Position numbers and translations under genes: made by a program
Origin: Aureibacter tunicatorum
GTDB taxonomy: Bacteria > Bacteroidota > Bacteroidia > Cytophagales > Cyclobacteriaceae
NCBI RefSeq assembly: GCF_036492635.1
Contig: NZ_AP025305.1
Coordinates: forward strand, 1,364,001 to 1,428,000
Direction: 5' to 3'
Length of the DNA: 64,000 bases
Notes under the pieces: generated by a model
The model's database searches: none
Told to the model about the DNA's origin: nothing
What the model saw: only the letters and a program-made list of their open reading frames with translations
In this document: positions 7,057 through 39,835 of the stretch, piece by piece
Layout: each line of letters begins with the position of its first letter
How positions within the stretch are numbered: position 1 is the stretch's first letter

Positions 7057-7065
7057 GTAAACTTT

Positions 7066-7980: not shown

Positions 7981-8217
7981 ATGTCTGAAATAGCACAGAA
8001 AGTAAAAGAGATTATTATTGATAAGTTAGGTGTTGAAGAGTCAGAAGTGACTCCTGAGGCTAGCTTCACAAATGATCTAGGAGCAGATTCACTTGATACT
8101 GTTGAGTTGATCATGGAATTCGAAAAAGAATTCAATGTTTCTATCCCTGATGATCAAGCGGAAAACATCGCTACTGTAGGTCAAGCAATCTCTTACCTAG
8201 AAGAGAACGCAAAATAA
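7981..8217 (+). CDS. acpP: Acyl carrier protein
   Basis: A 78-residue acidic carrier protein that holds growing fatty-acyl chains on a phosphopantetheine arm attached to Ser37, in the motif [10 protein letters not shown]. Length and the four-helix pattern are standard. The frame stays open upstream to an ATG at 7939, but that adds 14 unusual residues and overlaps the promoter, so MSEIAQK at 7981 is taken as the start. fabF follows after 33 bases, giving the common acpP-fabF-rnc operon that links fatty-acid synthesis with RNase III. Confidence 0.97.
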
Positions 8218-8250
8218 TTTAAATTTTTCACTACACACTAAAATTCATAT

Positions 8251-9504: not shown

Positions 9505-9510
9505 AAATTT

Positions 9511-10263
9511 TTGTGGGAAGTGGTATTGAAAAGATTATTAAACCTGCATATATTTTCTTCAAAAAAAAATAAAAGGCTTATATACACAATCAAAAGCATT
9601 GTAGGATATAAGCCTTTAAATTTATCCATCTATAAGCTGGTAACTCAGCATAGTTCGATAGCGAAGGAGAATGCCCAAGGTTTCAAAGAGTCCAATGAGA
9701 GGTTGGAGTACCTGGGAGATGCTATTCTAGGGGCAATTATCGCCGAATATTTATTCAAGAAGTATCCTTATAAAAATGAAGGCTTTCTTACTGAGATAAG
9801 GTCAAGGATTGTCAATAGGGAGTCCCTTAATCAGTTGGCCTTGAAGATAGGACTCAATAAGCTTATCGAGTACAATCAAAAACCTCAAAGGCATTCCATG
9901 TCTTTCAAGTCGATATATGGAGATTCTTTGGAGGCTTTGGTGGGAGCTGTGTATTTGGATAGGGGATATAAGAAATGCAAAAAGTTTGTGATCAACAAAC
10001 TGCTATTGCCTCATTATGACCTTGATGAAATAATCAAGAAAAACCCTAATCACAAAAGCCAGTTGATCGAATGGGCTCATCAAGAGCAGAAAGAAGTCAA
10101 GTTCGAAATTGTGCAGGTGAAAAATAGCAGTCCTTACAAGGAGTTTGTGGCAGAGGTGGTTGTGGAAGGCGAAGCAGTGAGTAGAGGCACAGGTCTTAGC
10201 AAGAAAAAGGCCGAGCAAAGCGCTGCTGAAAAAGCGCTTGAAAAATTAAAAGTAATTGGCTAA
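9511..10263 (+). CDS. rnc: Ribonuclease III
   Basis: An endoribonuclease for double-stranded RNA that processes rRNA precursors and structured mRNAs. The catalytic signature reads ERLEYLGDAILG, close to residue 65, with a second acidic cluster around GDSLEALVGA; a C-terminal double-stranded RNA-binding domain ends in GLSKKKAEQSAAEKALEKL. The start is not ATG. TTG at 9511 is the most upstream option (250 residues), but GTG at 9520 and TTG at 9526 give N-termini (KRLLNLHIFSSKK) closer to relatives, and a GGGAAG at 9515-9520 could serve TTG 9526. It is the last gene of the acpP-fabF-rnc unit. Confidence 0.95.
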   Translation: MWEVVLKRLLNLHIFSSKKNKRLIYTIKSIVGYKPLNLSIYKLVTQHSSIAKENAQGFKESNERLEYLGDAILGAIIAEYLFKKYPYKNEGFLTEIRSRIVNRESLNQLALKIGLNKLIEYNQKPQRHSMSFKSIYGDSLEALVGAVYLDRGYKKCKKFVINKLLLPHYDLDEIIKKNPNHKSQLIEWAHQEQKEVKFEIVQVKNSSPYKEFVAEVVVEGEAVSRGTGLSKKKAEQSAAEKALEKLKVIG

Positions 10264-10264
10264 T

Positions 10265-10296
10265 GACGAAAAAAGCCTGACCAAATTGATCAGGCT
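10265..10296 (-). terminator. Terminator of the TlpA-like gene
   Basis: AGCCTGA at 10274-10280 pairs with TCAGGCT at 10290-10296. On the minus strand the hairpin is followed by a T run (A run at 10269-10274 on plus), so it mainly serves the minus-strand gene; a weaker effect on rnc is possible. Confidence 0.75.
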
Positions 10297-10322
10297 TGTC
10301 TGTAGAAACGTTATTGTTTCAG

Positions 10323-11435
10323 TTAGTGGAAGAGTTCTTTTAACTTTTCGTCCAATTCTTCGCCTCTAAGGTTTTTAGCGATGATTTTGCCATCTTTGTC
10401 AAGCAAGAATGTTGATGGAATTGAATTGACTTGATATTCTTTTGCTACCTCTGAATTGAAATACTTCAAATCCGATACTTGAGGCCAAGTTAGTTTGTCA
10501 TCAGTGATCGCTTGTTCCCATTTGTCTTTGTCTTTGTCTAAAGATACTCCGATAAATTCGATTCCTTTGCTGTGATACTCATCGTATAAAGAAACCAAGT
10601 GAGGGTTTGCTTTTCGGCAAGGCGGGCACCAAGAAGCCCAAAAGTCAATGAGTACGTATTGTCCTTCAAAATCGCTTAAGCTTAATTTCTTGCCATCTGG
10701 TTGTGGTAATGTGAAGTTTGGAGCTTTCGATCCGATGGCTAGTTTTTTCGAGTTTTCAACTTGCTTGGCGAAATCGGTGATAATTGGCAACTCTGGATAT
10801 TTTTTCTTTAGCTCTTGAGCTACTTTGTCAATGGTGTTTATATCCTTATCCGGATCCAATAGCCCTACTAGCTGCAAGTCTCCAAGTACGATTTCGTTGC
10901 TGTTGATGAGATTTTTGATTTCCGTTTGAATAGTGTTTTGCAGTGAGTCGAATTTGGCTGTGTAAAGGTTTTCTGCCAATGCGTCACCACTAGCCATTGC
11001 TTGAGAATAGTCTATTTCTATTTGCGTGGCTTTGACTCTAAAATCTTCAAGGAACACATTTGCTTTGTCTAATAGATCGTGCGATTTAGATCCTTTTATC
11101 TCAACAACTCCTTTAGGGTTGTTTCCGTCAACTTGGATGTTTATGTTTTCATTGCCATCAAGCACAAGGTTGACGTTTTGCTGATTGTAAAAGTTCAGTC
11201 TGTAAAATCCTGATTCAAGTTCATCGGAATTCACATTGAAAGTACTGTCTTTTACAGCTAAAGTATCTATCGGAGTTGGTATTTGGCCTTCCCATTTTTC
11301 CAACACAACTGCTCCTGATTCAGAAGGATGATTTATTTTTCCTGAAATAGTTATTTCAGCATTCTTGCTGTTTTTATTGCAAGCTAAAAATGCAAAGCAA
11401 ATGCCCGCTCCAATAAAAATGTTCTTTAATTTCAT
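10323..11435 (-). CDS. TlpA-like thioredoxin-fold lipoprotein
   Basis: A 370-residue envelope thiol-disulfide oxidoreductase. The N-terminus is a lipoprotein signal with FLAC, giving lipidated Cys19. Residues ~27-125 resemble the DUF4369 beta domain common before Bacteroidota TlpA proteins, followed by a helical linker. From ~235 on there is an AhpC/TSA-Redoxin-like thioredoxin fold with the active site WCPPC (Cys270, Cys273) and a cis-proline region near SIPSTFLLD. Such proteins reduce periplasmic disulfides, for example in cytochrome maturation or stress response; the target here is unknown. It follows alaS on the same strand but is separated by a terminator and has a leader with an inverted repeat. 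Confidence 0.92.
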   Translation of the reverse strand: MKLKNIFIGAGICFAFLACNKNSKNAEITISGKINHPSESGAVVLEKWEGQIPTPIDTLAVKDSTFNVNSDELESGFYRLNFYNQQNVNLVLDGNENINIQVDGNNPKGVVEIKGSKSHDLLDKANVFLEDFRVKATQIEIDYSQAMASGDALAENLYTAKFDSLQNTIQTEIKNLINSNEIVLGDLQLVGLLDPDKDINTIDKVAQELKKKYPELPIITDFAKQVENSKKLAIGSKAPNFTLPQPDGKKLSLSDFEGQYVLIDFWASWCPPCRKANPHLVSLYDEYHSKGIEFIGVSLDKDKDKWEQAITDDKLTWPQVSDLKYFNSEVAKEYQVNSIPSTFLLDKDGKIIAKNLRGEELDEKLKELFH

Positions 11436-11461
11436 CTGAAATTTGTTTAATGTTCCTAATG

Positions 11462-11481
11462 CTTAAAGGACAGCCTTTAAG
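11462..11481 (-). repeat. Inverted repeat in the leader of the TlpA-like gene
   Basis: CTTAAAGG at 11462-11469 and CCTTTAAG at 11474-11481 form a perfect 8-base-pair arm with a 4-base loop, about 27 bases upstream of the TlpA-like start codon. It could be an operator or an mRNA hairpin; no T run follows it on the minus strand. Confidence 0.4.
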
Positions 11482-11545
11482 TTTTGTTTTAAAAAAAGTG
11501 AATTCTTATGTGTTTTGCTAAATACATAGAATCCCTAATGAATAT

Positions 11546-11573
11546 GAAAAAAGGGAGCGAAGAGCTCCCTTTG
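11546..11573 (-). terminator. Terminator of alaS
   Basis: GGGAGC at 11553-11558 pairs with GCTCCC at 11564-11569, extended by AAA/TTT pairs. On the minus strand the stem runs directly into a T tract. It lies about 20 bases past the alaS stop codon. Confidence 0.85.
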
Positions 11574-11591
11574 ATTCAAAACTTTTTTATG

Positions 11592-14213
11592 TTATATCAG
11601 CGTAGCTGCTTTTTCTACTACTTTATCAAGTCCATTTATATCTTTGCCTCCAGCTGTAGCAACTGAAGGTTGACCTCCCCCACCTCCTTTGATCTCTTTG
11701 GCTAATTCTCTAACGATTTGTCCTGCATTGAGGCCTTTTTCAGAGATTAAGCTTTCAGATACAACGACGGAGATTTGAGGCTTTCCTGCAATGTTCGCGG
11801 CTAATACCATATAGACATTTTCAACCTCATTTTTAATCTCATAAGATAACTTTTTTAAAGCGTCTGCATTAGGCATTTTGACTTTGCTAAATATGCAGTT
11901 TACATCGTCTTTCTTTACCGCATTTTTAATCAAGTCTTGTTTGATTTGACCAGCTTTTTCCAAGTTAAGTTTCTCAAGCTCTTTTGCTAGGCTTGACTTG
12001 TCTTCCAAAAGTTGTTGAACCGCTTTTAGCGTATCTTTAGGATTTTTAAGAGCTTCCTTGATTTCCTTTAACAATTCAATGTGGCTTTGGACGAAGTTCT
12101 GTGCCTCAATAGCAGTTACAGCTTCAATTCTTCTTACGCCGGCAGCAACAGAGCTTTCAGCGACAATTTTGAATAAGCCAATCTCGCCTGTGGATTTTAC
12201 ATGCGTTCCTCCGCAGAGTTCAATAGAGTAAGACGAGTCGAATGTAATTACCCTTACAAATTCGCCATACTTTTCTCCAAATAAAGCTGTAGCGCCTAGT
12301 TCCATAGCTTCTTTGATTGGAATATTTCTTTTTTCGTCTAATGAAATATTTTCTCTTATCTTTTCATTAACGATATTTTCAATCTGGCTGATTTCTTCGT
12401 CAGTTACTTTCGCGAAGTGAGAAAAGTCGAATCTAAGTACTTTGTCGGATACCAAAGATCCCTTTTGTTGCACATGATCGCCTAAAACTTGTTTAAGAGC
12501 CGCATGAAGCAAGTGTGTGGCGCTATGGTTGTTGGCAGAAAATTTTCTTTTCTCTATATCAACGACTGCTTTGAAAGTCGACTCAGGAGAAGCTGGGATT
12601 TTTTCAGCAAAGTGAACGATCAGATCATTTTCCTTTTTAGTGTCGAGGATTTTGATCGTTTCGTCTTCTGATATGATATAACCAGTATCTCCAACTTGTC
12701 CACCGCTTTCAGCGTAGAAAGGCGTTTGGTTAAGTACAATTTGATAAAGCGAGCCTTTTTTCTGCTTTACTTCTCTATATTTTACAATACTGGCGTCTGC
12801 CTCTAGGTTGTCATAACCGATAAAGGTGATTTCGTCTTGTTCCTTAAGAATATTCCAGTCGCCTGTTTCTACTTCAGCGGCTTTTCTAGAACGAGCTTTT
12901 TGCTCAGCCATTTCTTTTTCAAAACCAACCTCATCGATGACTAGGCCATGCTCTCTAGCAATCAATGCTGTAAGATCAAGAGGGAAGCCAAATGTGTCAT
13001 AAAGTTCGAAAGCGATCTTGCCTTCAACTTTCACATCATTTTTTGCTTTGACATCAGCAACAATTTCGTCCATTTTTTTAAGACCCACTTCCAGAGTTCT
13101 AAGGAATGAAGCTTCTTCTTCTTGAATTACTTTTTGAATGAATTCAGCTTGCTCTTTTAGTTCAGGGAATACTTGGTCGAATTGGCTTGCAAGTATTTCC
13201 ACCAACTCATACATGAACGGTGCTTTGAAGCCAAGGAAAGTATATCCGTATCTTACAGCTCTTCTAAGAATTCTTCTGATCACATACCCAGCTTTGTTGT
13301 TAGAAGGAAGCTGTCCGTCGGAAATAGCGAAAGTAATCGCTCTGATATGATCGACAATCACTCTTAGAGCGATATCTGTTTTTTCATCAACGCCGTATTC
13401 AACGTTGGATTTTTTCGCAATGTATTGAATCATTGGCTGGAAAACATCAGTATCATAATTGGATGTTTTTCCTTGAATAGCCATCGCCAATCTCTCAAAT
13501 CCCATACCTGTGTCAACATGTTGTTCAGGCAGATTTTCAAGTGTTCCATTGGCTAGACGGTTGAACTGCATGAATACAAGGTTCCAGATTTCAATAACTA
13601 AAGGGTGGTCTTGGTTCACCAAATCTTTCCCTGGTATTTTGTCTAATTCGCTTTCAGGTCGAATGTCGATATGTATTTCAGAGCACGGTCCGCATGGGCC
13701 TGTGTCTCCCATTTCCCAGAAATTGTCCTTTTTATTACCGTTCAATATTCTGTTTTCAGGAATTAATTCCTTCCAAAAATTGTATGCTTCTTGATCTCTT
13801 TCAAGTTTTTCAGATGCATCGCCTTCGAAAATCGTAACATAAAGCCTGTCTTTAGGAAGACCATATACGTCAGTCAGTAGTTCCCATGCCCAAGCAATAG
13901 CTTCTTTTTTGAAATAATCGCCAAATGACCAGTTTCCAAGCATTTCAAACATTGTGTGGTGGTAAGTGTCGATACCAACTTCTTCCAAGTCGTTATGCTT
14001 GCCTGATACTCTAAGACACTTTTGAGTGTCTGATACTCTTCTGACATCAGGAACTTTGTTTCCTAGAAAGTAGTCTTTGAACTGATTCATTCCAGCATTG
14101 GTGAACATCAGCGTAGGGTCGTCTTTGATGACCATTGGAGCTGAATCTACTATTTTATGCTGTTTATTTTCAAAAAAATCAAGAAAAGCTTTCCTTATCG
14201 ATTTCGAATCCAT
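11592..14213 (-). CDS. alaS: Alanyl-tRNA synthetase
   Basis: An 873-residue class II aminoacyl-tRNA synthetase charging tRNA-Ala. Visible parts in order: the N-terminal catalytic domain, with FTNAGMNQFKDYFLG and the DTGPCGPCSEIH loop; the editing domain, with zinc-ligand motifs HSATHLLH and CGGTH; and a coiled-coil and DHHA1 C-terminal domain ending in a glycine-rich GGGGGQPSVATAGG stretch. Length and domain order are complete. It is transcribed away from the M23 peptidase gene, whose start is 156 bases from the alaS ATG, and is followed by its own terminator. Confidence 0.98.
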   Translation of the reverse strand: MDSKSIRKAFLDFFENKQHKIVDSAPMVIKDDPTLMFTNAGMNQFKDYFLGNKVPDVRRVSDTQKCLRVSGKHNDLEEVGIDTYHHTMFEMLGNWSFGDYFKKEAIAWAWELLTDVYGLPKDRLYVTIFEGDASEKLERDQEAYNFWKELIPENRILNGNKKDNFWEMGDTGPCGPCSEIHIDIRPESELDKIPGKDLVNQDHPLVIEIWNLVFMQFNRLANGTLENLPEQHVDTGMGFERLAMAIQGKTSNYDTDVFQPMIQYIAKKSNVEYGVDEKTDIALRVIVDHIRAITFAISDGQLPSNNKAGYVIRRILRRAVRYGYTFLGFKAPFMYELVEILASQFDQVFPELKEQAEFIQKVIQEEEASFLRTLEVGLKKMDEIVADVKAKNDVKVEGKIAFELYDTFGFPLDLTALIAREHGLVIDEVGFEKEMAEQKARSRKAAEVETGDWNILKEQDEITFIGYDNLEADASIVKYREVKQKKGSLYQIVLNQTPFYAESGGQVGDTGYIISEDETIKILDTKKENDLIVHFAEKIPASPESTFKAVVDIEKRKFSANNHSATHLLHAALKQVLGDHVQQKGSLVSDKVLRFDFSHFAKVTDEEISQIENIVNEKIRENISLDEKRNIPIKEAMELGATALFGEKYGEFVRVITFDSSYSIELCGGTHVKSTGEIGLFKIVAESSVAAGVRRIEAVTAIEAQNFVQSHIELLKEIKEALKNPKDTLKAVQQLLEDKSSLAKELEKLNLEKAGQIKQDLIKNAVKKDDVNCIFSKVKMPNADALKKLSYEIKNEVENVYMVLAANIAGKPQISVVVSESLISEKGLNAGQIVRELAKEIKGGGGGQPSVATAGGKDINGLDKVVEKAATLI

Positions 14214-24578: not shown

Positions 24579-25811
24579 TTATGCAACATGCAGTTGCTTT
24601 AATTTCGAATTCTCAAATTTTTCTTTGGCGTATTCAAGAGTAACCTCAAACTCTTTCACATTTTCTTCTGAAGGAAGGTGGAACATTGCGTCCGTAATGA
24701 TCGCCTCGCAAATTGATCTAAGTCCTCTGGCTCCTAATTTGAATTCTGTTGCTCTTTGCACTATATAGTCAAGCGCTTCGTCTGAAAAGCTGATATCAAT
24801 GCCTTCCATGTCAAACAATTTTTTGTATTGTTTGACCAGAGCGTTTTTAGGGCTAGTCAGTATTAGCTTTAGCGTTTCAGATGTTAGCGGATCCAAATGC
24901 GTAATGACAGGTAGACGTCCGATCAGTTCTGGAATCAAGCCAAATGATTTTAGGTCCTGAGCGGAAACATATTTCAATAAATTGTCTTTGTCAATGTCGT
25001 TCTTTGAGCGATTTTCATCATTTGAAGCAAAACCTAGTGGTCTTGTGTCAAGTCTGTTGGCGATATGCCTTTTGATGCCGTCAAAAGCTCCTCCGCATAC
25101 GAAAAGAATATTCTCAGTATTTACTTGAATCATCTTTTGATCCGGATGTTTTCTTCCTCCTTGTGGTGGAACATTTACAACTGTTCCTTCAAGAAGCTTA
25201 AGCATTGCTTGTTGCACTCCTTCGCCACTCACATCTCTTGTGATGGAAGGGTTGTCGGATTTTCTCGCTATTTTATCTATTTCATCGATGTAAATGATGC
25301 CTCTTTCAGCTGCTTCTACATCATAATCTGATGCTTGGAGCAATCGTGTCAAGATGCTTTCCACATCTTCGCCAACGTAGCCGGCTTCAGTAAGCACAGT
25401 GGCATCTGCGATACAGAAAGGCACTTGAAGTTGATTGGCCAAAGTACGGGCCAAGTAAGTTTTTCCTGTTCCAGTCTCGCCGACCATGATGATATTGGAT
25501 TTTTCGATTTTCACATCTCCTTCATCATGCTGCTTTAGTCTTTTGTAATGGTTGTAAACCGCTACAGATAAGAATTTTTTCGCATCATCTTGACCAACAA
25601 CATATTTGTCAAGTTCTTTTTTAAGATCAGCAGGTTTGATAAGTTTGAAGTCGTCAGAAGCTTCGTTTTTGCTTTTTTGCTTAACTTCTTCTTTTAAGAT
25701 TTGCTGAGCCTGATCGATACAATGATTACATATATGGGCGTTGATACCCGAAACCATTAAGTCAACATCTTTTTTTTGTCTTCCGCAAAATGAACACGTA
25801 ATTTGAGCCAT
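24579..25811 (-). CDS. clpX: ClpX ATPase subunit of the ClpXP protease
   Basis: A 410-residue AAA+ unfoldase that feeds tagged proteins into ClpP. The N-terminal zinc-binding domain has four cysteines (Cys6, Cys9, Cys28, Cys31). The AAA module shows Walker A GETGTGKT, Walker [12 protein letters not shown], the pore-loop region, sensor ARG-type GARGLRSI, and the C-terminal small domain. The ClpP-contact loop appears as LIGRLPVI preceded by a FIPEL-like GLIPEL. It is downstream of clpP on the same strand, but a terminator-like hairpin lies between them. The length is standard. Confidence 0.98.
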
Positions 25812-25918: not shown

Positions 25919-26587
25919 CTATTTTTTTGTCAGTACCTCGTCAATAAGTCCATATTCTTTAGCTTGAGCGGCTTTCATCCAATAATCCCTATCGCAATGT
26001 TTTTCAACATCGTCGAATGGTTTGCCTGAATGATCCGCTAGAATTTGGATAAGTTCTTTTTTGAGGATGAGTATCTGCTGAGCAGTGATCTCGATATCAG
26101 AGGCTTGTCCTTGAGCTCCGCCAAGTGGTTGGTGAATCATGATACGCGAGTGCGGCAAGGCAGATCTTTTGCCTTCAGCTCCACCTGCTAGAAGAACGGC
26201 TCCCATGGATGCCGCAAGCCCTGTGCAGATCGTCGCAACATCAGGAGAAACATATTGCATAGTGTCATACATGCCAAGTCCTGCGTAAACAGAACCGCCT
26301 GGGCTGTTGACATATAGCAAGATGTCTTTTTTAGCATCGACTGATTCCAAGAATAACAATTGGGCAGTGATGATATTGGCGATGTTGTCATCTACTTGAG
26401 TGCCTAAGAAGATGATTCTATCCATCATTAATCTAGAGAATACATCTATCTCTCTAAAGTTGGTTGGGCGCTCTTCAATAACTGAGCGCGTCATGTTTTC
26501 AACATGGTTCACGTAGCTGTCAACGGTAGTTCCGGCAATTCCTTTTCCATGAACGGCGTATTTGCGAAATTCTTCTTTGTTGATCAT
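25919..26587 (-). CDS. clpP: ClpP serine protease subunit
   Basis: A 222-residue subunit of the tetradecameric ATP-dependent protease. The catalytic triad is visible: Ser127 in GLAASMGAV, His152 in MIHQPLGG and Asp201 in CDRDYWM. The oxyanion glycines lie in NSPGGSV. An N-terminal extension of about 25 residues precedes the usual mature start, compatible with the propeptides that Clp peptidases often carry. It sits between tig and clpX, the order found in most bacteria, but with terminators on both sides. Confidence 0.98.
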
Positions 26588-26668: not shown

Positions 26669-27994
26669 TTAGTTGTTTATTATTTCTTTAAATTCATCAA
26701 CAGTTGTCTCTTTTTTGTTGATTTCTGATGCTTCTTTAACTTTTTCGATGACTTTAGAGAATTTCAATTGCTGCATGATGTTCATGTAGTTTTGTCCATT
26801 CTCAGCTTTCAAGTAGTTGTCAACGAATCCAGCAAGGTTTTCCTCAAGTTGCTCTGGCGGAAGACCGTATTGCAAGAATTGTTGCTTGATTTGCTCAGCA
26901 GCCATTTCTTGAATATCGCTGTTGTTGATTTCGATGTTGTTGTCCATGACAATTTTGTCAGAGATCAACATCCATTTCAATTCTTCTATGTATTTGTCGA
27001 AGTCAGCGTCAACTTTTTCTTCAGTTAGGTCTTTTTGCGAAGCCAAAAGCCATTTTTTGAAGAATGTTTGAGGTAGAGTGATTTCAGTGTTTTTAACCAA
27101 CTCGTCTCTTAGGTTTTTCTCAGCGTAAGCTTCAGTCTCTCTATTGTAGTTCTCACCTAGTAGTTCCTTAAGCTTAGCTCTGAATTCCTCTTCATTCGTA
27201 ACCTGATCTTTGCCTAGAGCTTTGTCAAAGAATTCTTGGTTGATTTCCGCAGGAACAGTTCTGCTGATATTCAATACTTTGAATTCAACGTCACCTTCGA
27301 TTTCTTTAACTTCCTCTTCAGTTCTATTCAAGAAGTTGGCAAGCTTTTCATTCGATCTATATGCTTTCCTGATATCGAAAGTTTTGCTTTCTTCTTTTTT
27401 CATGTCAACGAATATGCTCTTGCCAGTCTTAGTAGCCAAGTCAGAAACGTCAACAAGCACTTTTACAGGCTCTTCTTCTCCAGGAAGGCTGATTTCTCCA
27501 TACACGTTGTCTTCTTCACTTACTTCATCAGGAGTAGATCTTTCACCCATTTGGATTTTTAGCTCATCGATAGTTTTTTCGATGTCCTCGTCAGCAACTT
27601 GGATTTCGTATTGGTCAGCCTTTTGAGCAAGATTTACAGAGAATTCTTCTACCAATCCGATTTCATACTCGAATTCGAATTCTTTTTGAGTTTTAAAGTC
27701 GATTTCTTCGTTAACAACAGGAAGAGGCTCACCGATGATGTTGAGCTTGTTGTCTTGGATGTAGCTGTTAAGGCTCTTGCTTACCAATTCGTTGATCTCA
27801 TCAACTAGCAAAGAAGCACCGTACATTTTTTTGATCATTCCTACAGGAACTTTGCCCGGTCTAAATCCTTTGATATTTGCTTTTTTGCTGTACTCCTTGG
27901 CTCTATTTTCAACACCCGGTTGATAATCCGCTTCAACTATTTTTAATTTGATTGAAGTCTCATTTGCTGCGCTTTTGTCTAACGTAATATCCAA
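26669..27994 (-). CDS. tig: Trigger factor
   Basis: A 441-residue ribosome-bound chaperone that holds nascent chains. The N-terminal ribosome-binding signature is present as GFRPGKVPVGMIKKMYG (residues ~43-59). The central peptidyl-prolyl isomerase-like domain is reduced compared with the enterobacterial form, which is usual in Bacteroidota, and the C-terminal part is helical and charged. It is preceded on the same strand by tRNA-Leu and its terminator, and followed by a terminator before clpP. Confidence 0.95.
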   Translation of the reverse strand: MDITLDKSAANETSIKLKIVEADYQPGVENRAKEYSKKANIKGFRPGKVPVGMIKKMYGASLLVDEINELVSKSLNSYIQDNKLNIIGEPLPVVNEEIDFKTQKEFEFEYEIGLVEEFSVNLAQKADQYEIQVADEDIEKTIDELKIQMGERSTPDEVSEEDNVYGEISLPGEEEPVKVLVDVSDLATKTGKSIFVDMKKEESKTFDIRKAYRSNEKLANFLNRTEEEVKEIEGDVEFKVLNISRTVPAEINQEFFDKALGKDQVTNEEEFRAKLKELLGENYNRETEAYAEKNLRDELVKNTEITLPQTFFKKWLLASQKDLTEEKVDADFDKYIEELKWMLISDKIVMDNNIEINNSDIQEMAAEQIKQQFLQYGLPPEQLEENLAGFVDNYLKAENGQNYMNIMQQLKFSKVIEKVKEASEINKKETTVDEFKEIINN

Positions 27995-28061: not shown

Positions 28062-28065
28062 AAAG

Positions 28066-28147
28066 TGCGGATGGAGGGAGTCGAACCCCCACGCCTTGCG
28101 GCGCTAGATCCTAAGTCTAGTGCGTCTACCAATTCCGCCACATCCGC
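28066..28147 (-). tRNA. tRNA-Leu (anticodon UAG)
   Basis: An 82-base tRNA with acceptor stem GCGGATG/CATCCGC, a D arm with AATTGGTAGAC, and an anticodon stem CTAGA/TCTAG around loop CTTAGGA, giving anticodon UAG, which reads CUA and related leucine codons. A long variable arm (CGCCGCAAGGCGT) typical of leucine tRNAs is present, and the T arm has TTCGACT. The discriminator is A; CCA is not encoded. Confidence 0.97.
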
Positions 28148-28238: not shown

Positions 28239-30572
28239 CTATTGAGTCGTCACCATTAAGTCTTGGACTTTGTTTTCAAAGGCTTGTTTGTCTAGGCTTT
28301 CCAATAGAAAAGGATAATAGCTGATAGTGTATTGCAGAAAGAACTGGCTTAATATGAACCCGTATTTGGCTCTGGTATATGCTAATTTTGCTTCTAAACT
28401 TGCTTGTTGGGCATCTAAAAGGTTAATAATTGGGGTTTTGCCGGATTTATACCCTTTTTCAACTAGAATGTAATTGTTCTCTGAGCTTTCCGAGGCTTCC
28501 TTGGTTAATTGAACGTTATAATACTCTTTGGATAAATCGTAAAGAGATTTCTGGACACTAAGAAAAATGTTCTGCAATAGAATTTCTCTTTCTTGAATTA
28601 ATTGGTTGAGCTGAATTTTCTGTTTTTGAGTGGTTTTAGTGATTCCTCTTCCTGTTAAAGGGATGGATAATTCAATGTTGGCTAGCCAAGTGTCATTGAC
28701 TTGTTCAGCTCCCAGAGCTTTCACTTCTTCAGGGAATTCCGCTGCGGCTCCAGATCTATAGAATACATGATAAGCTTGGGCTGTAGCGTATAATTCAGGA
28801 ATATACCTTTGCCTTTTATTTGATTTAATTAGTCTTTCTTGAGCTGCGATTTGTTGATCTATCGATTTTAAGGTAGGCGAGTTGTCATAAGCAATCAATG
28901 TTAAAACTTCGCTGAGTTTTTTGATTTGATTTTCTGTTACAAAGTAATCGCTGATTATGTCTAATGTGTATGTTTCATTTTTTTCGTATACACTGGCCAA
29001 TATGTGATCTGTGTTTAGCGGAAGGTTCAAAGTTTTGTTTAACTGTTTTATAAAATACAAAGTATTTTGATAAGCGCTTACACTTTGACTTGAATGATTG
29101 GCAAGAGATGTTTCCCATCTGTATATTTCGGATCTGCTAGAAGTTCCTGCTTGCACTCGGCTTTTAGCTAGGTCTAGATTTTGTTTTGACAGTGTAACAT
29201 TGGTCTCGTATATTTCTTGTGTAGCTTTTGAGTATAGAACATCAATGTAAGAGTTTAAGGCTTGAAATACAGTCTGATTTTTTGATTCTTTTAGGCTGTT
29301 GACTTGACCCTCCAATAGAAATTCTTGAGCTTTTATTTGACCTAGATCGTATTCTGAAAACAGGTTTTGGCTGAGTTGAATTTGACCATTTAGTTGAAAT
29401 TGAGAGTTAATGCCTAAGGATTGTCTTGCTAATTTGGGGTCGAGAAAGTAGTGAGTAGCGCTGCCTTCGAATACGGGAGCGAATCTGGTCAAGCTTAATT
29501 CATAATCCTTTGCTACAGATTCCAAAGTGAGTTTTTCATTGTTGTATTCCAAGTTATCTGAAATTGCGATTTCTACAGCTTCAAGTATTGAAATAGTCGC
29601 TTGAGGCGATTGATTGTTTATTTTTCCGAGTTGAATTTGCTCGAGAATTGGAATTTCAAGCTGAAGTTGATGTAATGTGTTTTCATTGATTGTAGGCTTG
29701 GGTATTTCATTCAAGTTGAATGGAAAGTTATTAAGGTTTTGCCGATCAATGACTTTTTGTATGCTTTCAGCCAATGTGTTGTTCCACATGTTCATGGATG
29801 GAGGCAATGAGTTGCTGATAAGAGCGCCAAGTTGCAAGTCTTCATAGGTATTGCTGAAGCTTGGAATATTGGAATTGTTGAGTTGGTCAAAGAGTTGTTG
29901 CCTTTGTTGAAAGGTTAAATTTTGTTTGGAATTAACAATAAAGCAAGCATCTACTTCTGCGGGAAGCTTGAAATTGTTATTTGTAATTGTATTGTAGTTG
30001 ATAATCTGTATAGATGCGGAATCAATTTGAATTTTATCGAAATCAATAAATTGGCCGGCATTTTCGTTGATTATGACAGCGAGTTTTTTATAGCTTATGT
30101 TTTTTTGAAAGGCTTTTACATTAAATTCTATTGTTGTCCCGCTTTCATTAAAGCAGGTCATATTGTATACATTTGAGTGCTTGGCTCCTTGTGAAGTAAT
30201 GTTCTCCAAGTAAGGATCAAGTATGGATGCGCATATTGTCGGTTTTTGAAATTTTGATTGTATTGCTATATAATTGGCTGAGAATTCTCCAAAGACAATG
30301 ATTATATCAACCTCAGGATTGTTTGAGAAATTTTTGAAGGTTTCAAGGGCATTGTATGCATCTGCGTTGTCGATTTTTATAGTTCTATAAATTTTACATT
30401 TTGACAGAGAATCAAAAAGTTCGCTTTTGCCTTGCAGTATATTTATAGTTTCATCGTTTAAGTTGTATTGACTGTCAATGATAACGCCTATGTTTTGAAC
30501 CGTTTTTGTTTGCGAGTATGTAAGTTGTGAACTTAGTAAAATAGCAAAGAAGAGAGATAAATATATACGCAT
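28239..30572 (-). CDS. TolC-family outer-membrane protein fused to an ABC-type periplasmic binding-like domain
   Basis: A 777-residue protein starting at ATG 30572 (MRIYLSLFFAILL), with a signal peptide ending near LTYSQ. Residues ~25-320 resemble ABC_sub_bind-type periplasmic binding domains: two Rossmann-like halves, with VDIIIVFGEFSANY, KKLAVIINENAG and GALISNSLPP. Residues ~335-770 show the repeated helical pattern of TolC-type channels (SILEAVEIAISDNLEYN, LNSYIDVLYS, QVNDTWLANIELSIPLTG). Normal TolC proteins lack the N-terminal domain. No efflux pump subunit or adaptor is adjacent, so the partner is unknown. It may sense or gate a substrate; that is inference. Confidence 0.82.
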   Translation of the reverse strand: MRIYLSLFFAILLSSQLTYSQTKTVQNIGVIIDSQYNLNDETINILQGKSELFDSLSKCKIYRTIKIDNADAYNALETFKNFSNNPEVDIIIVFGEFSANYIAIQSKFQKPTICASILDPYLENITSQGAKHSNVYNMTCFNESGTTIEFNVKAFQKNISYKKLAVIINENAGQFIDFDKIQIDSASIQIINYNTITNNNFKLPAEVDACFIVNSKQNLTFQQRQQLFDQLNNSNIPSFSNTYEDLQLGALISNSLPPSMNMWNNTLAESIQKVIDRQNLNNFPFNLNEIPKPTINENTLHQLQLEIPILEQIQLGKINNQSPQATISILEAVEIAISDNLEYNNEKLTLESVAKDYELSLTRFAPVFEGSATHYFLDPKLARQSLGINSQFQLNGQIQLSQNLFSEYDLGQIKAQEFLLEGQVNSLKESKNQTVFQALNSYIDVLYSKATQEIYETNVTLSKQNLDLAKSRVQAGTSSRSEIYRWETSLANHSSQSVSAYQNTLYFIKQLNKTLNLPLNTDHILASVYEKNETYTLDIISDYFVTENQIKKLSEVLTLIAYDNSPTLKSIDQQIAAQERLIKSNKRQRYIPELYATAQAYHVFYRSGAAAEFPEEVKALGAEQVNDTWLANIELSIPLTGRGITKTTQKQKIQLNQLIQEREILLQNIFLSVQKSLYDLSKEYYNVQLTKEASESSENNYILVEKGYKSGKTPIINLLDAQQASLEAKLAYTRAKYGFILSQFFLQYTISYYPFLLESLDKQAFENKVQDLMVTTQ

Positions 30573-32671: not shown

Positions 32672-35600
32672 ATGAAAGTTAAACTTTTACATATATATAC
32701 AATATTTTTTTTAATTCTTTCAGGCTCTTCCGTGGCGCAAAGCCTTAGGGTACAGACTTTAATGAGGCCGAATTGTGCAGATCCGAATTCAGCGAGTGTT
32801 GAAGTCGCTGTTGATAATCCTACGAGCGATTTTAAAATCGAAATTTTTGACTCCAATGATGTCTCTGTAGGCTTGGAAAGTGTTGCAGGGTTTTCTGGAA
32901 CAGTTTATACGCATAGTTTTTCAGGTTTGTCCAAAGGCGAATACTTGGTCAAGCTTAATGATACTTTAGATGAATTGCCTGTGAATTTAGAAACCATAGA
33001 TGCTGATGTCGAGCTTCTCCAAAGGAGCGAGAGCGTATGCATGGGAACAGTAGCGGAAGTGGTGATTAATGAAAGTCAAGCAAATGTCGATTATCAATTA
33101 TTTAATATAACTGAAAATTCATTAGTAGGAACTGCTGTAAGCGGAGATGGAAATGCAATATTTTTAAAGACAGACGCTATCAATGAAGATCAAGAGTATT
33201 TGGTGAGAGCCTCAGCGTGTGGAGGAACGGAATTAGTAGATTTAAATACGAGATTATCTTTTACAGCTTTGCAACAAGATTTGGATGTGAGTTTTATTGT
33301 TTCTTCCAACAGTCTTTGCGAAGGCGAAAAAATAGAGTTGGAAGTGCCTAATGCTAAGTCGTCAGTGTCTTACCGTGTTTATGATAAGCTTGATGGACAA
33401 TTTCTGTCTGATTGGAAGGTTGGAGAAGATGGGAATAGTGTCAAGTTTGATTTGAATGAACTGTCGAACACGGTGCAATTGCAATTATTGATTCAAACTG
33501 AAAAGTGCGGAGATTATTTTTCGACGCATGAGGAAAGTGTGATTGTTGATCAACGCCCAATGATTGTTTCCAGTACCTTGCAATTGTCGTCTTCAAATAT
33601 TTGCGAAGGGGAAACTGCTGAAGTTAGCGTGTCAAATTCAAATGCAAGCTACTCATATGTTTTGGTGAATGAGAAGTCATTAGAAGAGGTGAGTGTTCCA
33701 GTAGCTGGAAATGGAGGAGACTTGATACTTGTAAGCTCTCCTTTGGATGATGATATTCGATTGCTTGTCAAGGCTTTTGAACCGGGTAAATGTGAAAGCT
33801 ATTTTGAAAGCTCTTTTGGGATAAATGTAAATATAGTTTCGACGCCGTTTGTCTTGAATGAGAATCAAGAGTTTTGTACAGGTGAATTAGTGTCTGATTT
33901 GAAGCCTCAAGGAGATGATTTGGAATGGTATGATGAAGTAGGAACATTGCTTGATGGTTCGGAAGTTTTGCAAAATGGAAAATATGTAGTTAAAAGAAAA
34001 TCGGGACAGTGTTTAAGTGAAGGTGTTGAAGTTGCTGTTAGTAAAAGAGCGGACCAACAGGTAGAGTTCACAATAGAAAATGCAGAAGATGATAATGGCG
34101 ATGGCAGAGTTATGCCAATTATGAGTATCAGCAAAGCTGGTCTGTTGTCAAGCTTTAGAGTTAAATTAGATTATGATGTCTCCAAGTTGATGTTTGTTGG
34201 TTTGGAGGACTATAAACTAGGAGGAGAGTTTACGGCATCAGAAGTAAATGACGGCTTGGAAATTATTTGGAATGCTGGAGATTTAGGTGGTTTGTTTTTC
34301 CCTGATGGAGTTAATGTCTTGGAGTTGAGCTTTGCAAGAAGACAAGGAGTGCTTGACTGTGCTCCAATATTGTTGAGCATAGATACAGGAGACTTTGAAT
34401 TGACCGCAGGCGAGAGTGCTATAACTTGCGGCGCGTCATTAGCGGCTATGACAGCTTCATTGCAATTCAAACAAACGCCATTTTTTGAAATCTCAACAGA
34501 GAGAACTTTGATTTGCAATGGCGATGAAATTACAATTTCAGCAACAAATCTTAGAAATGCAGGTGTTAATCCCGTTGTGGAATGGTATATCAATGATGTG
34601 AAGCAAAGTGGTTCAGGATTGAATTTTACGTTTGATGGATTTAATGATGGAGACATTGTGAAGGCAAAAATGACTCCTGATATTACTTGCCCTTCAGTGG
34701 CGGAAGTTTATTCCAATGAGTTGTTGATGGAAGTTGGCAATAAAAAGTCAAGGGTTGAGCTTTTTGCTATAAAAGGAACCGGAGAAAGATTTAATGATGA
34801 GATTTCTTTATGTAGTGGTGATATACTGACTATTAGCGCTGAAACAACCACGGCTGGAGACAATCCATCTTACACTTGGTACAGAAAAAAAGCCGGCGAA
34901 TCTTTTTATTCGGAAATTATAGGTTTATTCACTAGTAGTAAAACGTATATAGGAGGGCATCCTTTTGCAGACGGCGATTCGATATTTGTGCAAGTCAATG
35001 TTTCAACAGGTACTTGCCAGTCGGGATTTGAAAACAAATTTGCGATTTCGAATAAAGTTCGTTTCAATGTCAATGGATTGGCTCCAACAGTTCAAGTAGA
35101 ATCGAATAAGCCTGTTTATTGCAAAGGTGAATCAGCGACATTGATTGCTAGGGGGGATAATTTTAGAGAAAATCCTTTCTTCATTTGGACAGTAGATGGC
35201 ACTGAATATCCGAAAACTAGTGATAGTGTTTTTATCGTCGATAATCTTCAAAAAGAAATTGATGTTTCGGTTAAGGTTGAGCTGAATGGAGTTGTAAATG
35301 ATTTATCATGTTTTGCTGAGACTGAGAAAGAGTCCAATATAGCCACGTTGCAAATTGGAAATCTTAACAATAGTATTGAAGTAAATTCTGATGATGCGAG
35401 AGCGTGCGTAGTAGGCGAGTTGATGACTTTTGATGCGAATGTTAGCGGATATGCTAATCCAACATATCAATGGCGTAAAAATGGAGCTGATATTATCGGT
35501 GAAACTGATGCTAGTTTTAGCTCGACAAGTTTGATCGATAATGATTTGATTAATGTTGTTGTGTCGGAGCAAGGTGGTGAGTGTTTGTTGAGTTCCGAAC

Positions 35601-38600
35601 CCGTAAATGTTTCTATAGGCCAAGATGTGCTGGATTTGAAAATGGAAGTAACAAAAGAAGTTTCTTGCGTTGGTGACCTTGTTTCTGTAATAGCGCACTC
35701 TTCAGTAGATGAAGCATTTTTGGATTTTCAATGGAGCGTAAACGGAACTTTATTATCAAATGAAACTTCAAATACATTGACTCGTAATTTTTGGGGCAAT
35801 GGGGATGAAGTGCAAGTGACAGTTTCTTCCTCTGAACCATGTGTATTAGGATCTCCAATCACATCCGAAATAATTGTAATTAATGTAAAATCAAGAGAAA
35901 CGCGAATAAAGGTGCAAGCTAGCAAAGAGTTAGTGTGTTCGGGCGAGAGTGTGACATTGGAAATTGTAGGGGATGATTTGCCAGATGATTTGACTTATTT
36001 GTGGTTCAAAGATGGTCAGATATTAGACTTTTTCGCTAATGAAAGAACGTTTGATGTGAGCAATATTCAGTCTTCTGGAAAGTATTACGCTGAGTTGAGA
36101 AAAGGCATAGCTGATGATCTAAACTGTCTTGATTTTGAAAACATAATAATGGATACAGCTCAGATCGATATTTTGCCAAGCGAGTATAATTTTGAGTTGA
36201 AAGTCGATAAAGAGCGTGTTTGCTCAGGAGATCGTGTTAATCTGACATTGGAATCCGATTTAAACCTTGATTCATTTCAATTTGAATGGTATTTGAATGG
36301 TAATTTGATTCCAGGAGTTGATGAGTCTTCATATTCAATACCAGTAGCCACCTCTAGTGAGATTAAAGTCAAAGTGTCGAATTCTGGTTTAGCCTGTTTT
36401 ACAGCTTTGGAAAGATCAGTGAATGTTGATATTGGAGATGTCGAACCTACTATTTCTATTGATGCAAACAATACGACTGTTTGTGAGGGGGAAACGGTTA
36501 GTTTTACCGCTCAAGTTTCAGATGCTGGCGATGCTCCGCAATATGTTTGGATGATTAATGGAGTGGAGATAGCTAAAACATACTCACCAACTTTTGAAAC
36601 AGCAGACTTAATCGATCAAGATCAAGTGTCGGTGAAAGTGATTAGTAGTTTGTCATGCGATAAAGCCAATGAAGCAACTTCGGAAATATTGAATATCACC
36701 ATTGATAATTTGCCGATGGAAGTTGATCTGCTTACAGATGAGGATAATTATTGCCTGAACGAGTCTGCTACATTTACTGCTGATGTCCGCCACGGAGGAG
36801 ATAGTCCTGCATATCAGTGGTTTGTCAATGGTAATGAAATATTAGGACATAATGCTCCAACATATGAATACTTTACCAACGCTGAAGGGCAAGCTCACAT
36901 TGAGGTTGTGGTAAGTAGTTCAAGAATTTGTTCTCCTGGAGAAAAGAAAAGGGCGGAAAAAACTATAGGAGTTGGAAAGAAGAAATTAGAATTGACAATA
37001 AGTCCGGATAAGGAAAGTGTATGCTCTCCAACGGATGTTGTATTGTTTACCGCTGTATTGCCAAGTATTGATGATCAAGTCACTATAAATTGGTGGGTAA
37101 ATGGTATCGTTCAAAAATCAGGAACTGACAAAACTTTTGTCTATGGAGGATTTGATCATGGAGATATTGTGGAAGCTGAAGCTGTTTCAACTTCATCGTG
37201 TGCTTTAAACTCTAGAACGGTATCCAATGAAATTGTAATAAATAATATTCCAAAGCCAGTATTGAGTTTGAATGTGCCGAATATAGAAGTTTGTGAAGGT
37301 GGTTTTATTGATCTTTCTCAATACATGGAGGTTGACTTTGATGGGGGAACTTTTACATTCAATAGCACTGAATCTTTGACAGATTCTGATGGAATGTTTG
37401 ACGCAAGCTCTTTATCAGCAGGAGAAGTGAGGAAAATTACGGTATCATATGACCACCCTTTTGCATGTGTTAAAGCTGATGATTTGGAATTTGATGTTAA
37501 TGTCGTGGTTTGCTCAACAGAACCATGTGATGATTTTGTTATTGAAGGAGTATTTGGTCAAAGTCCATCTTGTGGAAGCTCTCCGGAAGGCAAGCTTTCC
37601 ATTAACTTGTCTGGCGGGGTCGCTTATGAGTTGCAATACAAATTGGATACCGAGAGTGCTTGGAGCCCTATTTTGAGTACTAACACCAACAATATCTTGA
37701 TTTCCGACCTTATAGCAGGCACATATCAGATTAGAGGACGTTTGAAAAAGGCGGTAATTTGCGAATGGTCAGAGATACATACATTTTATTTGCAACCTTT
37801 GAAGTCGAGTTTGATCGATAATGTTGTGATAGGACATACAACAGTAGAAACTCCAGGGATTGGTTTTGTTGAAGTGCGAGGCAAAACATTTGAAGGAGGT
37901 GTATTAAGGGATGACACGTTTGATTTTCACATAGAAGATAAATATGGGAATGTGCTGGTGAATCAGACGGGGCTTTTTGAAAATTTGAGAGCTGGAGAAT
38001 ATGTCTTGTCAATAACGTCTTTAACAACTGGATGTATTTCTAATGATTCAACAGTTGTGATTGAAGAGAGGGAGTCGCTGAATTGCGATAATGTGATTTT
38101 TGATTTCGAGCTTTCGAAACCGCAAACTTGTCAAGCTTTTGGGGAAATCAATTTTGTCGCTAGTGGAGGTTCTGGAGATTATGAATATCGTCTTTATAAG
38201 CTGCAACAAAATAACCAATGGCAGGAGGTGAGTCCTTATCAAACTCAACCGCAGTTTACTATTGAGGCGGGAACCTATAAAGTGGAGCTTAAGGATTTGA
38301 ATTACGACTGCACTAAACTTTCTCAAGAGGTTCAAGTTGCTGAGCAAAGAGTTAACCTTGTATTGAATTGGGATGTGATTAGTTCAAGTACTTGTGGTAA
38401 GAATGATGGCAGCTTTAGGATGAATCAAATAACTGGCGGAGTAAGTTCATCTTTTTATTCATGGAAATGGATTAATAAGGGGGATGAGGCATTTACTCCT
38501 TTTATTGAAGGCACAGTGATTGAGAATGTGGGAAGTGAAGTTCAGTATTTGGTACTAAAGGATGAGTTTACCGGTTGTACGAAAAATGTAGAGATAACAG

Positions 38601-39835
38601 TAGGAGGACCTGAAGTAGTCTATTTTGAATTACAAAAGGTAGATCCAACTTGTGGTGGAGGCGGAGATGATGGCAAGCTTACTGTTAATATTGACAAAGA
38701 TAGAACAAACACGGATTGGCCTTATTTTGTAACTATTATTAAAGATGATACTGAAGAAGTGTATGTGAGAGATTTAATGGAATCTTTTTCTAAAGAGTAT
38801 AAAGATCTTTCTTCTGGTCAATACACTGTTCGAATAGTTTCCGAAGATAGCGGTAACTCATGCCCAAGCCAATCAAATATTGAAATTGGCGGAGCTTATG
38901 TTAATGTTGATTTTACTATGAATGTGAATTTGCCTTACTGTTCAGACGATGAGGCTGAGATTATTGTCGGAGAAATAATTGGAGATGATGCTCTTGACTA
39001 TAAACTCACTTTGCTGAACGATCAAGGGGAGGTTGTAATTGAAGACAGTTTCCAAAACGACATTAACTTTATAAATTATGTTATTGACGATTCTCAGTTA
39101 AGTGAGGGAGATTATTCACTCTCTTTGTCCCAAGAGCAAAGCGGCTGTGTGATTTCTGAAAAAAGAGCAATATCTATTTCAAGGCCTGAAAATCCTTTGA
39201 GAATAGAAGAGCTTGTGATTGATGAAAAGTACTTGCCATTTGATAGCGAGAATGGAAATATAGGTATTGTTAATCTTGTGGATATTACTCGAAGCGGTGA
39301 AGGAGGGTATAGAGTCAAGCTTAAGCTGGAGGAAAAGCTTACCTCTTATGGAAGCGAACAAGCTGGAGATATTATCTTTGAAGCGCAGTTGACTGATCAT
39401 TACGATTTGTCTAAAGATGCGGAAGCTACATTTAGAAATCTTCATGCGGGAGAGTATTCAGTGATTTTGAATGACACTTCCGGATGCGTAGTTTCGGAGA
39501 ATTTTGTATTGGAAATGACGCAAGGTATTTGGATCCCGAATATTTTCACTCCAAATGGAGATCGATACAACAATGTGTTTGAAATAGGCAATATGCCTAG
39601 AGCTAATGAGGCAGGATGGACAATCGTGATTACAAATAGAGCCGGCAGAACTGTTTTCAAATCGACGGATTATAAATTAGGCAATGAATGGACGGGGGAA
39701 GGACAGCCGGAGGGAATTTATTTTTATGAATTGAATGCTGGAGATCATGGTAACTTCACAGGTTGGGTAGAGTTGTTTAGAGGCGATCCTGCAAAACTTA
39801 ATTCATCGGCATCAGGATCAGCTCAAAGTAATTAG
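32672..39835 (+). CDS. Giant 2387-residue multi-Ig secreted protein with type IX sorting domain
   Basis: Starts with a Sec signal peptide (YTIFFLILSGSSVAQ). The body is a long series of Ig-like modules that repeat a pattern such as CxGExV, then YxWxxNG (for example PTYQWRKNGADI, PAYQWFVNGNEI, PQYVWMINGVEI). At about residues 464-590 a different module looks like a cohesin or carbohydrate-binding fold (FRVKLDYDVSKLMFVG), preceded by an EF-hand-like loop DDNGDGRV. SprB-type modules follow, and the last ~100 residues are a gliding-motility/type B sorting domain (IWIPNIFTPNGDRYNN, GIYFYELNAG). It is therefore probably a type IX-exported surface adhesin, comparable in build to gliding adhesins, although its ligand is unknown. 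Confidence 0.93.
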   Translation: MKVKLLHIYTIFFLILSGSSVAQSLRVQTLMRPNCADPNSASVEVAVDNPTSDFKIEIFDSNDVSVGLESVAGFSGTVYTHSFSGLSKGEYLVKLNDTLDELPVNLETIDADVELLQRSESVCMGTVAEVVINESQANVDYQLFNITENSLVGTAVSGDGNAIFLKTDAINEDQEYLVRASACGGTELVDLNTRLSFTALQQDLDVSFIVSSNSLCEGEKIELEVPNAKSSVSYRVYDKLDGQFLSDWKVGEDGNSVKFDLNELSNTVQLQLLIQTEKCGDYFSTHEESVIVDQRPMIVSSTLQLSSSNICEGETAEVSVSNSNASYSYVLVNEKSLEEVSVPVAGNGGDLILVSSPLDDDIRLLVKAFEPGKCESYFESSFGINVNIVSTPFVLNENQEFCTGELVSDLKPQGDDLEWYDEVGTLLDGSEVLQNGKYVVKRKSGQCLSEGVEVAVSKRADQQVEFTIENAEDDNGDGRVMPIMSISKAGLLSSFRVKLDYDVSKLMFVGLEDYKLGGEFTASEVNDGLEIIWNAGDLGGLFFPDGVNVLELSFARRQGVLDCAPILLSIDTGDFELTAGESAITCGASLAAMTASLQFKQTPFFEISTERTLICNGDEITISATNLRNAGVNPVVEWYINDVKQSGSGLNFTFDGFNDGDIVKAKMTPDITCPSVAEVYSNELLMEVGNKKSRVELFAIKGTGERFNDEISLCSGDILTISAETTTAGDNPSYTWYRKKAGESFYSEIIGLFTSSKTYIGGHPFADGDSIFVQVNVSTGTCQSGFENKFAISNKVRFNVNGLAPTVQVESNKPVYCKGESATLIARGDNFRENPFFIWTVDGTEYPKTSDSVFIVDNLQKEIDVSVKVELNGVVNDLSCFAETEKESNIATLQIGNLNNSIEVNSDDARACVVGELMTFDANVSGYANPTYQWRKNGADIIGETDASFSSTSLIDNDLINVVVSEQGGECLLSSEPVNVSIGQDVLDLKMEVTKEVSCVGDLVSVIAHSSVDEAFLDFQWSVNGTLLSNETSNTLTRNFWGNGDEVQVTVSSSEPCVLGSPITSEIIVINVKSRETRIKVQASKELVCSGESVTLEIVGDDLPDDLTYLWFKDGQILDFFANERTFDVSNIQSSGKYYAELRKGIADDLNCLDFENIIMDTAQIDILPSEYNFELKVDKERVCSGDRVNLTLESDLNLDSFQFEWYLNGNLIPGVDESSYSIPVATSSEIKVKVSNSGLACFTALERSVNVDIGDVEPTISIDANNTTVCEGETVSFTAQVSDAGDAPQYVWMINGVEIAKTYSPTFETADLIDQDQVSVKVISSLSCDKANEATSEILNITIDNLPMEVDLLTDEDNYCLNESATFTADVRHGGDSPAYQWFVNGNEILGHNAPTYEYFTNAEGQAHIEVVVSSSRICSPGEKKRAEKTIGVGKKKLELTISPDKESVCSPTDVVLFTAVLPSIDDQVTINWWVNGIVQKSGTDKTFVYGGFDHGDIVEAEAVSTSSCALNSRTVSNEIVINNIPKPVLSLNVPNIEVCEGGFIDLSQYMEVDFDGGTFTFNSTESLTDSDGMFDASSLSAGEVRKITVSYDHPFACVKADDLEFDVNVVVCSTEPCDDFVIEGVFGQSPSCGSSPEGKLSINLSGGVAYELQYKLDTESAWSPILSTNTNNILISDLIAGTYQIRGRLKKAVICEWSEIHTFYLQPLKSSLIDNVVIGHTTVETPGIGFVEVRGKTFEGGVLRDDTFDFHIEDKYGNVLVNQTGLFENLRAGEYVLSITSLTTGCISNDSTVVIEERESLNCDNVIFDFELSKPQTCQAFGEINFVASGGSGDYEYRLYKLQQNNQWQEVSPYQTQPQFTIEAGTYKVELKDLNYDCTKLSQEVQVAEQRVNLVLNWDVISSSTCGKNDGSFRMNQITGGVSSSFYSWKWINKGDEAFTPFIEGTVIENVGSEVQYLVLKDEFTGCTKNVEITVGGPEVVYFELQKVDPTCGGGGDDGKLTVNIDKDRTNTDWPYFVTIIKDDTEEVYVRDLMESFSKEYKDLSSGQYTVRIVSEDSGNSCPSQSNIEIGGAYVNVDFTMNVNLPYCSDDEAEIIVGEIIGDDALDYKLTLLNDQGEVVIEDSFQNDINFINYVIDDSQLSEGDYSLSLSQEQSGCVISEKRAISISRPENPLRIEELVIDEKYLPFDSENGNIGIVNLVDITRSGEGGYRVKLKLEEKLTSYGSEQAGDIIFEAQLTDHYDLSKDAEATFRNLHAGEYSVILNDTSGCVVSENFVLEMTQGIWIPNIFTPNGDRYNNVFEIGNMPRANEAGWTIVITNRAGRTVFKSTDYKLGNEWTGEGQPEGIYFYELNAGDHGNFTGWVELFRGDPAKLNSSASGSAQSN

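Follow-up and report, generated by a model that had tools for sequence, protein, structure and literature searches.

Aureibacter tunicatorum encodes a 777-amino-acid protein in which a domain with the predicted fold of ABC_sub_bind/TrpX-type binding proteins is fused to a TolC-like channel. The gene lies at 28239-30572 on the minus strand of the window, the 64,000-nucleotide stretch of DNA analyzed here, and its reading frame is intact from the ATG at 30572 to the stop codon at 28239. The open frame, Pfam, an AlphaFold2 model and VIA-align confirm the protein as a real fusion, the two folds being predicted ones. In relatives, the fusion gene is nearly always followed by genes for an adaptor and an RND pump. 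The copy in the window is an orphan.

Architecture of the fusion protein

The protein begins with a signal-peptide-like segment (residues 1-21; 30510..30572, minus strand), recognized by sequence inspection and modeled as a helix over residues 2-19; no lipobox cysteine was seen in it. By a simple pattern, the lipobox is also absent from 62 of 67 fused frames. Residues 24-320 (29613..30503, minus strand) make up the putative two-lobed ABC_sub_bind/TrpX-like domain, referred to as the SBP domain, and residues 326-758 (28299..29597, minus strand) the TolC/OMF channel part. Within the channel, OEP matches in the genome place the first repeat at 29025..29582 (genome C1:1393025-1393582) and the second at 28326..28895 (genome C1:1392326-1392895), both on the minus strand. 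The AlphaFold2 model of the whole fusion, built from a 29-row alignment, has a mean pLDDT of 81.6 and a pTM of 0.63.

Residues 1-320 of the window protein match no Pfam family and no NCBIfam model at E<=1, and the protein has no match to the TrpX NCBIfam model NF041285 at the same threshold. Since Pfam is silent on the window sequence by itself, the N-terminal domain is assigned from its relatives and its fold. Two of five fused proteins in a five-member set reach PF04392 at E<=1 (best 6.7e-6), and a profile of five fused proteins finds, with its N-terminal domain, the structures 3lft (E 1.6e-8), 3lkv (2.4e-7) and 6hni (3.1e-4). The same three structures are found by the N-terminal domain alone in a 29-row profile (E 6.7e-10 to 1e-7). 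One relative (L029) matches the NCBIfam TrpX model at E 5.2e-13, with 48.8 bits that fall far under the cut-off of 390. Residues 24-320 of the model align with 6hni, 3lkv and 3lft at VIA Z 21.0-21.5 (278-280 residues aligned, rmsd 4.3-4.6), and Foldseek agrees with VIA-align on the structural matches of the model.

The channel half is recognized directly by Pfam OEP (PF02321), which finds two repeats in the window protein (E 1.7e-35, 123 bits against a cut-off of 22). Residues 327-758 of the model align with the TolC crystal structure 1ek9 at VIA Z 30.0 (396 aligned, rmsd 3.0), and residues 322-758 with 9a2x, an integrative model of E. coli TolC rather than a crystal structure, at VIA Z 31.1 (405 aligned, rmsd 3.4). 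In the alignment with chain 1ek9_A, model residue 327 falls on its residue 1, which we take to be counted in mature TolC numbering, so the binding-protein domain appears to be joined at TolC's own N-terminus. An earlier note, made from the sequence, had proposed an ABC_sub_bind-type two-lobed domain followed by a TolC-like remainder and had called for a structure prediction of the whole protein; both halves take the proposed folds in the model, and residues 25-320, where the absence of a binding-protein fold would have undone the proposal, are predicted to have one.

Occurrence and operon context in relatives

In a first sample, four relatives matching across both halves were found in 3 of 38 other genomes, all from other genera and at 25-29% identity. 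A five-protein profile matched 36 of 295 genomes and 22 of 84 genera in a family sample (E<=1e-30, own genome included); among its 42 rows, a few stand for unfused channels or for pieces cut at contig ends. The N-terminal profile matched 16 of 291 genomes in an order sample (E<=1e-12) and 3 of 295 in a class sample (E<=1e-8); in a phylum sample, the fusion is sparse, with 18 of 395 genomes matching (E<=1e-12). The own genome is included in each of these counts, and the order, phylum, class and family samples share some genomes. All 23 matching rows of the order sample lie in long frames, as do 17 of 18 of the phylum sample and 3 of 3 of the class sample, the window's own row being in each. These frames are 781-1013 amino acids long, and the sole exception is a 148-amino-acid fragment at a contig end. 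The channel half was confirmed in all long frames that matched the N-terminal profile.

The same fusion also appears in a contig-database scan, whose relatives include Roseivirga echinicomitans, Reichenbachiella agariperforans, Fulvivirga sp. M361 and Owenweeksia MAGs; it gave 10 loci in all, including a weak match to a Legionella channel. A first contig-database scan, with the window protein as the query, had found no relative. Chance fusion through an assembly or sequencing error is practically ruled out: the fusion recurs in independent assemblies of many genera and on a plasmid record of another phylum, and we found no evidence in support of an artefact. The earlier note had allowed that the two halves might be separate genes in close relatives. 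No stand-alone N-terminal domain was found in the order, phylum and class samples (291, 395 and 295 genomes) at the thresholds used. The titles and abstract openings covered by the literature searches, a scope with preprints and most subscription papers outside it, contain no description of an SBP-TolC fusion.

The neighborhoods of the relatives were read from wide loci in which frames of at least 70 amino acids were scored. These loci cover the relatives from the first, family, order and phylum samples, without the 148-amino-acid fragment and two new relatives from the class sample. They hold 67 fused frames longer than 700 amino acids, the window copy counted, and in 64 of the 67 an adaptor and then an RND pump follow on the same strand. 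The gap between fusion and adaptor has a median of 8 bases (range -154 to 363). The partner gene is split into two frames in 2 of the 64 operons, the adaptor in L088 and the pump in L167. Six further loci have adaptor and pump and stand outside the 67, one for an in-frame stop (L085) and five for being cut at a contig end (L105, L111, L113, L114 and L115); also outside are a truncated copy (L117), a cut one (L119) and three unfused channels (L033, L116 and L118). The L029 adaptor is above the curated RND_mfp cut-off (214 against 94.9 bits), and its pump is an ACR_tran protein. Two scanned pumps are under the cut-off of every NCBIfam model matched, the best being RND_permease_2 with 447 and 481 of 1250 bits.

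The three fused frames without adaptor and pump are the window copy, one from a distant lineage of the phylum (L185) and one whose contig ends (L112). L185 is a second orphan fusion, a 930-amino-acid frame from a GTG start at 8293-11085 of its locus, with no adjoining adaptor or pump. The truncated copy L117 is 423 amino acids long, has no pump within 9459 bases and may reflect either gene breakage or an error of assembly. Pump partners in relatives had been suggested as a check, and they adjoin the fusion in all but these three frames. The claim that no pump or adaptor gene is adjacent is thus correct for the window and fails as a general trait.

The N-terminal profile searches covered Bacteroidota genomes, and other phyla were covered by tblastn of plasmid records and two short-peptide contig scans. 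Plasmid pSULKU01 of Sulfuricurvum kujiense (Campylobacterota) encodes an 803-amino-acid fusion above the cut-offs of both OEP and PF04392 (38.6 bits against 25.9 for the latter). At 6752-14008 of this locus (L201), the fusion is followed by an HlyD adaptor, an RbbA-annotated ABC ATPase with an ABC-2 membrane domain, and an ABC-2 permease. Because the Sulfuricurvum fusion precedes an ABC exporter, the SBP domain appears to go with the channel rather than with one type of pump; in this one case, the pump class varies while the fusion persists. Four plasmid records of Cetobacterium somerae (Fusobacteriota) also match. In three of them (L202-L204), adaptor and RND pump follow 'TolC family proteins' of 723-726 amino acids whose N-terminal part is shortened and remodeled and gives no match to the SBP profile (hhalign probability 61, 140 columns). 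That it is the same domain is plausible by eye and weak by profile, and these proteins are not counted as proven members because the N-terminal part is shorter and weakly comparable.

These neighbors also bear on the direction of transport. The closest solved relatives include TrpX-type proteins, and TrpX serves tryptophan uptake (PMC9382623), so the SBP domain might pass a substrate to the channel for uptake in the manner of an ABC importer. This is very improbable, given that the linked genes are of exporter types, RND or, in Sulfuricurvum, ABC-2, and that the window's genome has no PF04392 match above the curated cut-off.

Distances in the SBP half correlate with those in the channel half at r=0.90 over 62 operons, where the maximum of 500 permutations was 0.12; the correlation of the SBP half is 0.83 with the MFP adaptor and 0.69 with the RND pump. 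Part of this correlation stems from the shared ancestry of the hosts. As judged from sequence distances, it shows that the two halves have travelled together, host descent notwithstanding. Set against 26 unfused channels (31 were found, and 5 were dropped for gaps), the 67 fused channel halves fall into a single group, and a single origin of the fusion is not claimed because the support for this grouping is only 0.37.

The orphan copy of A. tunicatorum

Downstream of the window's fusion gene, where relatives have adaptor and pump, lies the trigger factor gene tig (26669..27994, minus strand), followed by clpP (25919-26587) and clpX (24579-25811). A tRNA-Leu (TAG) gene that had escaped the earlier note sits between the fusion gene and tig (28065..28147, minus strand). 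A tRNA-linked insertion of the fusion gene was considered and rejected, the 3' end of the tRNA-Leu having no repeat in the window. Upstream are a PAPS reductase-family gene, an epimerase gene and the gene for a 2387-amino-acid Ig/CHU_C protein. The last of these, at 32672-39835, combines Ig-like domains with a CHU_C type IX secretion signal domain. No adaptor or RND pump adjoining the window's fusion gene was found.

A cognate pump elsewhere in the genome is likely absent. On profiles from four fusion operons, the highest scores in the genome are 678 bits for an RND protein and 163 for an adaptor. The unbroken partners of fusion operons score at least 1146 (RND) and at least 315 bits (adaptors), except in four distant operons, which score 679-688 and 144-155; the absence of a cognate pump is thus likely and short of certain. 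An unfused channel of 462 amino acids belongs to the 678-bit pump (C1:3975715). No OEP match lies within 20 kb of two RND loci of the genome, C2:111931 and C1:1307246/1311455, which are candidates, and no more than candidates, for partners of the orphan channel. Several OEP genes of the genome also have no RND neighbor, so unlinked channels are usual in this genome. Elsewhere in the genome, a single 1451-amino-acid open frame (L042, C1:1281161-1285489) joins an RND pump to two OEP repeats.

The nearest relative of the window copy is operon-linked (L108), with support of 0.956 in the channel tree and 0.485 in the SBP tree. Decay of this copy after the loss of its exporter operon would account for the missing linked pump and for the divergence of the window copy, which is the most diverged of 29 sequences at conserved columns (6 of 20 SBP and 16 of 47 OEP columns changed), sits on a terminal branch that is the longest of the OEP tree and, in the SBP tree, shorter than only one other, and has lost two near-invariant SBP residues, with K49 and N265 in place of E49 and R265. 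This divergence could reflect a loss of function. We consider decay improbable all the same, since the 777-codon frame is intact, the two OEP stretches are far over the Pfam cut-off, and the protein scores 455 bits against the fused-channel profile and 255 against the SBP profile, the window protein being itself among the 29 rows of those profiles.

Ligand binding, working model and comparison with known systems

The ligand residues of S. suis TrpX include T108, A127, T129, D152 and N233 (PMC9382623). These five contacts were placed on 3lft by motif and then on the fusion family through a profile alignment. At these positions, the consensus of the family profile is S, G, I, S and S, the commonest letters are V, G, I, T and L/Q, and the window copy has E, S, L, S and N, a match at N233 only. 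The positions are below average in conservation, with 85% of random five-position sets at least as conserved. The ligand of TrpX is therefore unlikely for the family, the contacts being lost in its consensus. The most conserved residues of the SBP domain among the 67 frames are N137 and N296 (67/67 each), G249 and R265 (65/67 each) and E49 (64/67). Either another ligand that differs between operons or no ligand at all fits this pattern, and sensing or capture of a substrate by the fused domain, as first suggested, is possible.

The explanation we favor, with a little less than even confidence, is an exporter exit duct with a ligand-responsive collar, the window copy being an orphan that, if functional, pairs with a distant pump. 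The protein would be a TolC-family outer-membrane duct with a periplasmic, ABC_sub_bind (TrpX-like)-derived domain at its mature N-terminus. In a TolC trimer, three such domains would form a collar in the zone from the equatorial ring to the outer membrane, where other TolC systems have the lipidated N-terminal linker (OprM) or, in E. coli, YbjP. In most of the relatives analyzed, the fusion gene comes first in a three-gene exporter operon, followed by the genes of the membrane-fusion adaptor and the RND pump. The collar would most likely respond to some small molecule of the periplasm and thereby tune the assembly or the opening of the exporter. For the window copy, the linked pump genes were presumably lost or never present, leaving a diverged orphan whose function would depend on a pump encoded elsewhere, perhaps at one of the two channel-less RND loci. 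A more specific form, in which the collar senses a periplasmic molecule and sets the recruitment or opening of the channel, with RND pumps in Bacteroidota, an ABC exporter in Campylobacterota and a distant pump here, is unlikely as it stands.

The SBP fold could instead be a purely structural collar without a ligand, serving to dock the adaptor or to brace TolC against the outer membrane or peptidoglycan. The lost TrpX contacts agree with this, as do the near-invariant E49 and R265, which are other letters in 3lft by our reading of the profile alignment, and the shortened N-terminal part in Cetobacterium. In E. coli, YbjP occupies the corresponding slot, and its report demonstrates no efflux role for it (PMC13082787). 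A structural collar is a real possibility that falls well short of probable. The full-length domain has been kept in scattered Bacteroidota lineages and in Sulfuricurvum, where it is above the PF04392 cut-off, and a variable pocket on a kept scaffold fits different ligands equally well. Because the full-length domain is kept in distant lineages, we hold the ligand-responsive collar to be slightly likelier than a purely structural one. The points against the favored explanation are the lost TrpX contacts, the shorter N-terminus in Cetobacterium, the precedent of YbjP and the divergence of the window copy.

TolC ducts are usually viewed as pipes that are opened by adaptor and pump. With ducts that have a built-in binding-protein domain, sensing of a substrate by the outer-membrane part of an exporter becomes directly testable, and the natural fusion offers a model for the docking of extra domains at the TolC equator. 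Ducts of this class are pump-linked in one phylum, where the lineages that have them are scattered, and they occur in at least one further phylum.

Several known systems share parts of this arrangement. With the TolC/OprM outer membrane factors, the fusion has in common two OEP repeats, the predicted TolC fold and, in relatives, the RND operon context, and it differs in the two-lobed periplasmic domain of about 300 residues in front. With the ABC_sub_bind (PF04392) proteins, namely TrpX-type 3lft, CD0873 (6hni) and 3lkv, it shares the predicted fold over the whole domain, and N137, G249 and N296 of the family are the same letters in 3lft by our reading of the profile alignment. Unlike those proteins, its domain is joined to a channel, has lost the TrpX contacts in consensus and has exporters as neighbors in relatives. 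The relatives resemble RND tripartite pumps in their adaptor (RND_mfp in L029) and ACR_tran pump, whereas their channel bears an SBP domain and the two scanned pumps are under the NCBIfam cut-offs.

The closest parallel in position is YbjP-TolC of E. coli. Many TolC homologues have a lipidated N-terminus that is inserted into the outer membrane; in E. coli, YbjP takes over this place and reaches from the equator to the membrane (PMC13082787). YbjP is reportedly dispensable for efflux under standard conditions, and its authors see no support for an allosteric or signaling role (PMC13082787), a finding that counts against a ligand-responsive collar. YbjP is an extra folded periplasmic domain between the TolC equator and the outer membrane (PMC13082787), and the fused domain would lie at the corresponding site. 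YbjP and TolC reportedly assemble at a stoichiometry of 3:3 (PMC13095208). Unlike the fused domain, YbjP forms a lipoprotein of its own; it belongs to another family (DUF3828) and occurs only in some Enterobacterales (PMC13082787).
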